DNA of 50,493 nucleotides from Microgenomates group bacterium GW2011_GWC1_46_15 (GTDB taxonomy: Bacteria; Patescibacteriota; Microgenomatia; UBA1400; UBA12028). The position numbers and the translations under genes are program-made. The stretch covers positions 1 to 50,493 of the forward strand of contig LCLX01000005.1 in NCBI GenBank assembly GCA_001002285.1, in the 5' to 3' direction. Below, one piece after another: positions 40,978-44,031 of the stretch. Under the pieces are notes generated by a model, which was not told the DNA's origin, did no database searches, and saw only the letters and a list, made by a program, of their open reading frames with translations. Positions within the stretch are counted from its first letter, which is position 1, and each line of letters opens with the position of its first letter.

Positions 40978-41005
40978 TCATTTCCTGACTGCAGTTCACC
41001 TGTGT

Positions 41006-41011
41006 TATACT
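41006..41011 (+). promoter_or_regulatory. Predicted -10 of the ileS leader promoter
   Basis: TATACT 41006-41011; predicted TSS ~41018; -35 weak. Confidence 0.5.
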
Positions 41012-41017
41012 ATTCCC

Positions 41018-41180
41018 AAATAAATAAAAGCATACTCCCCGCCCATCATCGGGGTGCTGATCGAAGAAATCCTTCGGGAAAGTAGAACGATCCGGGTAAG
41101 CCCGAGACAGCAGGATTGAGAAGCAAGTAAGGTGGAACCACGCGGAAGCGTCCTTGAAGGACAGTGAGCGTGGTTTTTTT
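41018..41180 (+). ncRNA. T-box riboswitch leader of ileS, predicted ultrashort Stem I with ATC specifier
   Basis: Antiterminator AAGG-TGGAACC-ACGC-ggaa-GCGT-CCTT (41129-41155); Stem I hairpin CCCCG-cccATCAt-CGGGG (41037-41054) on base agca/tgct. Confidence 0.88.
41137..41180 (+). terminator. Intrinsic terminator of the ileS T-box
   Basis: ACCACGC (41137-41143) pairs with GCGTGGT (41168-41174) enclosing GTCCTtgaAGGAC, followed by a T run; mutually exclusive with the antiterminator. Confidence 0.8.
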
Positions 41181-41211
41181 ATGCCAACATATGACACAAT
41201 AGGAGTGCGCA

Positions 41212-44031
41212 ATGAAACATATAGATAGTTTTCAAACTCAGCCAAATCTTCCTCAACTCGAAGAGGAAGTGCTCAAGCATTGGGACGAAACAGACGCATT
41301 TGCCAAATCCGTTAGCCAGCGTCCGGCCACCAAGCCCTACATTTTCTACGATGGCCCTCCATTTGCGACGGGTTTGCCGCACTATGGCCATCTCTTGGCT
41401 TCAACCATTAAGGACGTGATTCCGCGGTACTGGACGATGAAAGGCTACCGCGTGGAGCGTGTGTGGGGTTGGGACTGCCATGGAGTTCCGATCGAAAACA
41501 TGATCGAAAAAGAACTTGATCTCAAAGGTGGGAAAAAAGGCATTGAAGAAATGGGAATTGGCAAGTTTAACGCTGCGTGCCGCGCGGCAATTTTGCGATT
41601 CGACAAAGATTGGGAAATCATCATTAAACGCCTTGGCCGGTGGGTGGACTTCAAACACTCCTACAAGACAATGGATAACACATACATGGAATCGGTGTGG
41701 TGGGCATTTTCGCAGCTCCACACTGGTGGATTGGTGTACGAAGGGCACAAAGTCATTTTGTACTGCCCGCGATGCGCCACACCGTTGTCGAACTTTGAGA
41801 TTGTAATGGATAACTCGTACAAAGACGTCGAGGATAACTCGGTTTATGTAAAGTTCAAGGCGGTTGGCATCGAAAACGAGTACTTTATCGCGTGGACAAC
41901 TACACCATGGACACTCATTGGCAATGTCGCATTAGCAGTAGATGCTAAAGCGGAGTATGCGCAGGTTGAACTCAATGGGGAGCTGCTTTGGGTGGCAAAA
42001 AAGCTTGTCAAAACAGTATTTAAGGGTGATAAACCGGTCGTTAAGCAAACAATCAAAGGCAAAGACCTTGTTGGTCGGCAGTATGAGCCACTTTATACGT
42101 TTATGCCTTTGGATGGAAAAAAGGCGCACTACATCGCATCTGCTGATTTTGTGAGTTTGGAAGATGGAACGGGTATTGTTCATACCGCCGCGATTTATGG
42201 TGAAGATGACTATGCGCTAGCGCAAAAACTTAATCTTCCGTGTGTCCCAACGATGGATGACCAAGGGCGATTCTTGGAGTTTGTAACTCCGCTCGCCGGT
42301 GTGTTTTACAAAAAAGCAGAAGACTGGATTATTGAGGACTTAACCAAACGCGCTCTCATGTATGCCGCACAAAAAACAACGCACTCATATCCATTCTGCT
42401 ACCGCTGTTCCACACCGCTGTACTACAATGCTGTGCCGGCATGGTTTATCAACGTACAAAAAATCAAGCCGGAATTAGTAAAACAGAATGAAAAGATTAA
42501 CTGGTATCCGGAATTTTTGAAACACGGACGGTTTGGTAAGGGGCTAGAAACGGCACCGGATTGGAACATTTCACGCTCCCGCTATTGGGGAACGCCGATG
42601 CCGGTATGGGTGGGTGAAAAGACTGGCAAGCAACGCATTTTGAGTTCGTTTGCAGAGTTAGAGAAGTGGGCGGTAAAGCCGGATTCTGTTCGAACATTAA
42701 CGGATTACCACCGCGAGTTTCTCGATGATATTGAAGTTTGGGTTGACGACGCAAAAACAGAAAAAGGCCGCCGCATTCCCGATGTGTTTGACTGCTGGGT
42801 TGAGTCTGGTTCAATGCCGTACGCGTCTATCCACTATCCGTTTGAGCATAAGGACAAGTTTGAGGCGAGTTATCCCGCGCAGTTTATTTCTGAGTACATC
42901 GCGCAAACCCGCGCGTGGTTTTACACACTGCACGTGATGTCAGTTGGACTGTTTGGAAAGCCGGCGTTTGAAAATGCTGTTACGACAGGGACAATTTTGG
43001 CAGCAGATGGGTCCAAAATGAGCAAGTCCAAGAAAAACTATCCCGATCCGATGCTTCTCATCGATAAACATGGTGTAGATTCTTTGCGCCTGTACTTGAT
43101 GAGTTCAACCGTGATGAAAGCAGATAACGTAAACTTTAGCGAAGACGGAGTGAACGAGATTCGCAAAAAAGTATTTGGCATTTGGTGGAATGTATTTTCA
43201 TTCTACAAACTTTATGCAGATCAAACAAAACCATTAGAGTTGCCCAAAAAGATTACACATGTCATGGATGTGTGGATTGTGTCTCGGATAACTCGCCTTA
43301 TTCAAGAGGTAACGGCATACATGGATGCGTATGATGTGGTCAACACTTCCCGCGTGCTCATGACGTTTGTTGATGAACTGTCCACGTGGTATCTGCGTGA
43401 GAGCCGTGATCGCCTGCGGGATAAAGCAACGAATGGTGAAGCAAGCCAAGTGTTTGGATGGGTACTGCTTACGCTCGCAAAATTGTTTGCCCCGATCACA
43501 CCGTTTTTCCCGGAGTTGTTATATCAGCATCTTGGACAGATAAAAGGGGAGTCTATTCACTTGGAAGATTGGCCTGTTGCAGAACCTACGTACATACACG
43601 ATCAGCTTGAGCAGATGATGAAACTTGTTCGTGAAGTTGTAGAAAAAGTGCACGCAGCCCGTAAGGAACAACATATAAAGGTTCGTCAGCCTCTTGCACG
43701 TGTAATAGTGACGGCCTCTGCACAACCGATGGACAATGTACTTGATATTCTTAAACAAGAAATCAATGTAGAGGAAGTTGTGTGGACTGAAAAAGCAGAA
43801 AGTGAACTTACTGTTACCCTCGACACAACACTCACTGACAATCTCAAAGCCAAAGGAGAGATGCGTGAAGTCATGCGTGTTATTCAAGATCTCCGCAAAG
43901 AATCGAACGTTGGATTTGACGCGTACGTAAATGTTCAGCTTCCAAGTTGGCCGAAACAGTTTGAAGATGAGATCAAAAAGAAGACGCTAGTGAAAAACCT
44001 CACAGCTGGTGATGTTCCGAAGATTGTATGA
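41212..44031 (+). CDS. ileS: Isoleucyl-tRNA synthetase
   Basis: FYDGPPFATGLPHYGHLLASTIKDVIPRYWTMKGY; WGWDCHGVPIE; DGSKMSKSKKNYPDP. Confidence 0.97.
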   Translation: MKHIDSFQTQPNLPQLEEEVLKHWDETDAFAKSVSQRPATKPYIFYDGPPFATGLPHYGHLLASTIKDVIPRYWTMKGYRVERVWGWDCHGVPIENMIEKELDLKGGKKGIEEMGIGKFNAACRAAILRFDKDWEIIIKRLGRWVDFKHSYKTMDNTYMESVWWAFSQLHTGGLVYEGHKVILYCPRCATPLSNFEIVMDNSYKDVEDNSVYVKFKAVGIENEYFIAWTTTPWTLIGNVALAVDAKAEYAQVELNGELLWVAKKLVKTVFKGDKPVVKQTIKGKDLVGRQYEPLYTFMPLDGKKAHYIASADFVSLEDGTGIVHTAAIYGEDDYALAQKLNLPCVPTMDDQGRFLEFVTPLAGVFYKKAEDWIIEDLTKRALMYAAQKTTHSYPFCYRCSTPLYYNAVPAWFINVQKIKPELVKQNEKINWYPEFLKHGRFGKGLETAPDWNISRSRYWGTPMPVWVGEKTGKQRILSSFAELEKWAVKPDSVRTLTDYHREFLDDIEVWVDDAKTEKGRRIPDVFDCWVESGSMPYASIHYPFEHKDKFEASYPAQFISEYIAQTRAWFYTLHVMSVGLFGKPAFENAVTTGTILAADGSKMSKSKKNYPDPMLLIDKHGVDSLRLYLMSSTVMKADNVNFSEDGVNEIRKKVFGIWWNVFSFYKLYADQTKPLELPKKITHVMDVWIVSRITRLIQEVTAYMDAYDVVNTSRVLMTFVDELSTWYLRESRDRLRDKATNGEASQVFGWVLLTLAKLFAPITPFFPELLYQHLGQIKGESIHLEDWPVAEPTYIHDQLEQMMKLVREVVEKVHAARKEQHIKVRQPLARVIVTASAQPMDNVLDILKQEINVEEVVWTEKAESELTVTLDTTLTDNLKAKGEMREVMRVIQDLRKESNVGFDAYVNVQLPSWPKQFEDEIKKKTLVKNLTAGDVPKIV

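Follow-up and report, generated by a model that had tools for sequence, protein, structure and literature searches.

T-box riboswitches have been sorted into four classes, of which classes I and II carry a long Stem I and are generally transcriptional, and classes III and IV are mostly translational (PMC10482949). In class III, represented by the Nocardia ileS leader, a short Stem I presents the specifier in an apical penta- or hexanucleotide loop, and Stem II is required (PMC10482949). We examined a 50,493-nucleotide stretch of DNA (hereafter the window) from a genome of 913,836 bases in 8 contigs, in which nucleotides 41018 to 41180 form what is, on sequence evidence, a well-supported T-box riboswitch of ileS with an apical Ile specifier that would act on transcription. 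The relatives of the encoded IleS protein place the host in Patescibacteria, near Microgenomates, as judged by identities of 79% to the protein of locus L004 (labelled Candidatus Paceibacterota) and then about 60-65% to Gottesmanbacteria. The parts assigned to this region are as follows.

41003-41011, + strand: extended -10 element TG-T-TATACT, read from the sequence, with the RNA start expected near 41018
41018-41180, + strand: T-box leader of ileS, upstream of the open reading frame at 41212-44031
41029-41058, + strand: ultrashort Stem I of 30 nt, with base AGCA (41029-41032)/TGCT (41055-41058), 4-nt bulge TACT (41033-41036), apical stem CCCCG (41037-41041)/CGGGG (41050-41054) and apical loop CCCATCAT (41042-41049)
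41045-41047, + strand: Ile specifier codon, ATC, within the apical loop; the next base is A41048
41059-41092, + strand: Stem II, with lower helix GATCG (41059-41063)/CGATC (41088-41092), S-turn-type internal loop AAGAAA / AAGTAGAA and short upper stem TCC/GGA, as aligned to the covariance model
41093-41111, + strand: Stem IIA/B element CGGG-TAAG-CCCG (41093-41104) with F-box-like tail AGACAGC, kept in relatives
41129-41155, + strand: antiterminator, with helices A1, AAGG (41129-41132)/CCTT (41152-41155), and A2, ACGC (41140-41143)/GCGT (41148-41151), the latter around GGAA; from sequence, model alignment and fold
41133-41139, + strand: T-box bulge TGGAACC, with UGG predicted to pair with the CCA end of the tRNA and A, the fourth base, opposite A73
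41137-41180, + strand: intrinsic terminator with arms ACCACGC (41137-41143) and GCGTGGT (41168-41174) and 7 T (41174-41180); from sequence, fold and relatives
41201-41205, + strand: Shine-Dalgarno sequence AGGAG of ileS, 3′ of the terminator and outside its pairing
41212-44031, + strand: ileS, isoleucine--tRNA ligase, 939 aa (TIGR00392, 854.7 bits, above cut-off)

Like the class III ileS T-boxes of Nocardia farcinica and Mycobacterium (PMC10482949, PMC10651847, PMC7583486), this leader has a short Stem I without the elbow-binding IDTM, a small apical loop that holds the Ile specifier and a purine after it, an S-turn in Stem II, a Stem IIA/B element with an F-box, and ileS downstream. Unlike them, however, it carries a terminator overlapping its antiterminator rather than acting mostly on translation initiation, it belongs to Patescibacteria rather than to the Actinobacteria in which class III has mostly been identified, its relatives bear Ser, Asp, Val, Asn and other specifiers, and the window copy lacks the GA/GA kink-turn. 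With class I T-boxes (B. subtilis tyrS type; RF00230) it shares an antiterminator with a 7-nt UGGNACC bulge, a mutually exclusive terminator and a synthetase gene downstream, but not the long Stem I with its internal-loop specifier and IDTM. The class II glycine T-boxes, such as B. subtilis glyQS, also use a transcription terminator as their platform, but their Stem I is long and Stem II is missing. In the ileS leader this is reversed, and a glyS leader in the window seemingly has neither a long Stem I nor a Stem II. By these comparisons, the ileS leader is a class III-like aptamer joined to a class I-like expression platform. Because our search for T-box papers on Patescibacteria covered the open-licence literature and found none, we regard novelty as provisional, and place it in how the already known parts are combined, in how widely Patescibacteria share that combination and in the departures of the window copy.

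A preliminary description of this region, made from the letters alone, had proposed the Stem I hairpin with its base and bulge, the ATC codon next to an A in the loop, the perfect antiterminator and the mutually exclusive terminator with its T-run, and each of these was recovered base for base. It had also listed CGGG-TAAG-CCCG as a further hairpin; the hairpin exists, and it corresponds to the Stem IIA/B element. Stem II, which encloses the AAGAAA and AAGTAGAA motifs, had been missed. The proposed sharing of one minimal architecture with the glyS leader holds for the ultrashort Stem I but not for Stem II and Stem IIA/B, which the ileS leader has and the glyS leader apparently lacks. Searching the window for the T-box core AAGGTGGAACCACG without allowing mismatches gave a single hit.

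Stem I folded alone adopts the described structure (-11.0 kcal/mol, z -2.1), and the lower helix of Stem II covaries in relatives; minimum free energy folding of Stem II in isolation favors a different pairing. The antiterminator's bulge and its helix A2 supply the terminator's 5′ arm. Since the terminator is predicted at -19.4 kcal/mol (z -3.7; 1 of 200 shuffles was equally stable) and the antiterminator at -7.2 kcal/mol, the off state would be favored without help, as expected of a T-box.

An Rfam scan of the window gave nothing at gathering score, and ten related leaders compared with Rfam likewise gave no gathering-level T-box match. The preliminary description had called for an Infernal/Rfam search. 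The ileS leader scores 26.8 bits against RF00230, whose gathering cut-off of 93 is a detection threshold and not a biological feature; a covariance model of our own (R1) found it at 86.7 bits (E=1e-20). The window leader was held out of that model, which was seeded with seven other ileS leaders whose variable loops were trimmed by hand. At the level of whole genomes, R1 has matches in 61 of 88 within the order and in 124 of 380 within the phylum; Chloroflexi ileS leaders in L062 and L065, in which the T-box core GGGTGGTACCGCG is present, gave no match to it. In many relatives, the ileS leader has a short hairpin directly 3′ of a -10 box, with NN-ATC-A or NN-ATC-G in its loop. The window leader belongs to a large, so far uncatalogued T-box group of Patescibacteria.

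Two-sided changes were seen in 28 of 29 pairs among 71 distinct sequences. Compensatory cells numbered 609; shuffles gave 157, and sliding the partners gave no more than 135. A second set of 40 sequences agrees. The apical hairpin, for which absence of covariation had been named in advance as evidence against the proposal, covaries strongly: all 6 of its pairs changed on both sides in the 71 distinct relatives, and 96.6% of its cells are paired. Because these alignments were made by fitting to the model, the raw covariation counts weigh less than the slid controls and the agreement between codon and gene.

Specifiers were read by a fixed rule, as the triplet immediately preceding the final base of the model loop. 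Downstream genes were named by NCBIfam for 40 leaders; for the others, the best BLAST match or the cluster gave the name. The loop codon agrees with the downstream synthetase in 81 of 93 leaders, kinship among genomes being uncorrected. Because the seed was biased toward ATC, the strict test is the non-Ile set, where 31 of 39 leaders agree, against a mean of 9 and a maximum of 18 in 20,000 permutations (kinship again uncorrected). By class, agreement was found for ATC in 50 of 54 Ile leaders, AGC or TCC in 13 of 14 Ser leaders, GTC in 7 of 9 Val leaders, GAC in 4 of 6 Asp leaders and GAC or AAC in 6 of 6 Asp/Asn-type leaders; Trp (TGG) is also represented. An Ile codon in an internal loop, the other outcome that had been named as contrary, was not what the ileS alignment gave, 50 of the 54 parsed leaders having ATC at the apex. 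All 50 matching Ile leaders use ATC, in line with the C-rule for specifiers (PMC7778990), and the genome of the window has one tRNA-Ile(GAU). On the codon-gene test we reject the idea that the apical ATC is a chance codon. The model loop of the window copy, CCATCA, is effectively 8 nt long through a C-U mismatch; the loops of relatives are mostly 6 nt. Five valS leaders (L151, L159, L161, L165 and L232) have apical loops enlarged to 9-11 nt that end in ATGTCA, with GTC as the specifier.

These data also bear on two other ways of reading the leader. It might be a canonical T-box with a longer Stem I, whose internal loop holds the true specifier while the apical ATC is coincidental, and canonical long-Stem-I T-boxes do exist in the same order, with RF00230 matches over the cut-off. 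The promoter, however, lies too close for a longer Stem I to fit, as TATACT (41006-41011) ends 17 nt 5′ of the Stem I base. Distances are similar in relatives, 77 of 92 of which have at least 5 of 6 matches to TATAAT within 35 nt 5′ of Stem I (a perfect box in 30 of 92, compared with 6.6% of shuffles). A consensus promoter scan called no promoter at the -10 site of the window. With the apical codon tracking the gene in several amino-acid classes and the apical stem covarying, we consider an internal-loop specifier extremely improbable. Alternatively, the leader could be an ultrashort T-box acting on translation as in Actinobacteria, its U-run incidental. The aptamer does match a class whose members act mostly on translation initiation (PMC10482949, PMC7583486), but control by a sequestrator does not fit the layout: the 7-U terminator precedes an exposed Shine-Dalgarno sequence, which lies 20 nt 3′ of the U-run and outside the switch hairpins. 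Besides the stability of the terminator itself, antiterminator-excluding terminators, counted as hairpins that start inside the antiterminator and end flush with a U-run (all U-runs considered), are present in 73 of 100 leaders with a T-box motif, compared with 5 of 300 shuffles as stable. Translational control is therefore very unlikely.

The window copy departs from its group in three features. Between the base and apical stems, most relatives have GTTTGA ... GA/AA, a GA motif resembling a kink-turn (73 of 92 by the relaxed GA/GA criterion). The Stem I base of the window, AGC-ATACT / T-GCT, has no GA/GA kink-turn, and only a bulge of about 4 nt is present there and in L004; if this element works like class III at all, it would do so with an altered bend. 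The F-box U after CCCG is kept in 66 of 73 leaders and is A in the window and L004; in Nocardia, the F-box change U90C caused a 20-fold loss (PMC10482949). The third feature is the fourth base of the T-box bulge, counted with a strict T-box pattern that avoids false TGGN sites, which is U in 47 of 55 Ile and 8 of 9 Val leaders and C in 10 of 14 Ser leaders. The discriminators expected for the Ile, Val and Ser tRNAs of the relatives are A73, A73 and G73, so that in most classes the bulge base tracks the tRNA. Discriminator bases were read from tRNA genes in the genome of the window and in that of L004 (G001) only. Its perfect antiterminator notwithstanding, the window leader offers UGGA to A73 of the sole tRNA-Ile(GAU) gene, so that the UGGN-discriminator pairing fails, and L004 has the same bulge A and the same A73. 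The serS (UGGC, G73) and glyS (UGGA, U73) switches of the same genome do match their discriminators. This pairing is found in the majority of cases, with exceptions, according to TBDB (PMC7778990), and because exceptions are known, the mismatch does not exclude T-box membership. Both S-turn motifs are found in 48 of 54 Ile leaders, and AAGAAA/AAGTAGAA of the window conforms as a pair of sequence motifs. Elsewhere in the group, these motifs were seen in 8 of 8 Val leaders, 1 of 14 Ser leaders and 1 of 6 Asp leaders. The joint occurrence of kink-turn loss, F-box change and discriminator mismatch in the window genome and in G001 might mean that the T-box is decaying and senses tRNA-Ile poorly, leaving a mostly constitutive terminator or a weak switch. 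Against this, a second genus, with only 79% identity in IleS, has kept the same three states, and between the two genera Stem I shows a compensatory change (CCCCG/CGGGG in the window, CTCCG/CGGAG in L004), which argues against decay since the structure appears to be under selection. We regard decay as unlikely, and the ileS leader as a real and functional-looking T-box by its sequence features.

We assign a probability of about 0.88 to the reading that a tRNA-Ile-sensing T-box controls ileS by transcription attenuation. Architecture, specifier identity, covariation and the mutually exclusive terminator are established here from the sequence itself and from its relatives; tRNA binding, its dependence on charging and actual termination are what we infer. 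The RNA would start about 11 nt 5′ of the ultrashort Stem I and offer AUC in the apical loop to the GAU anticodon of tRNA-Ile. The resulting duplex would be clamped by Stem IIA/B and by the S-turn of Stem II, in the manner of the ileS T-boxes crystallised from Nocardia and Mycobacterium. When the tRNA is uncharged, its CCA end would pair with UGG of the bulge, the antiterminator would form, and polymerase would read into ileS. When it is charged, the far stabler terminator would stop polymerase before the Shine-Dalgarno sequence.

The 0.9 Mb genome carries four T-box switches, preceding ileS, glyS, serS and aspS. The glyS leader, at 18200-18335 of the window (18.2 kb), has an ultrashort Stem I with GGC in the loop GTTGGCAG, then apparently no Stem II or Stem IIA/B, and then a Stem III-like hairpin, a UGGA antiterminator and a terminator. 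A similar layout is seen in four other genomes (L136, L138, L141 and L142). Such a leader would be without both known means of strengthening tRNA binding. The serS T-box (L001 1503-1644, G000:C4) has an apical AGC and UGGC; for the AGY codons, a single tRNA-Ser was found in the genome, and ARAGORN reads its anticodon as ACU, not GCU. The aspS T-box (L199 530-644; G000:C1:240029-240143) has an apical GAC and UGGC. Long-Stem-I T-boxes over or near the Rfam cut-off (L114-L123) coexist in the same order; L119 precedes alaS, and others precede genes without an NCBIfam name.

According to a review, transcriptional T-boxes generally need a long Stem I and a tRNA-elbow module, with binding completed before polymerase reaches the terminator, whereas those with an ultrashort Stem I are translational switches without such a time limit (PMC7583486). 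We tentatively suggest, with rather less than even confidence, that Patescibacteria harbor a broad T-box lineage of several specificities in which an ultrashort Stem I without elbow contact controls termination, that the elbow module is dispensable for transcriptional T-boxes, and that the window copy works even without the standard kink-turn or discriminator pairing. A widespread group that combines an ultrashort aptamer with a terminator would make the kinetic argument directly testable with natural RNAs. It would also bring a tRNA-sensing regulon, missed by the Rfam cut-off, to bacteria for which we found no T-box paper.
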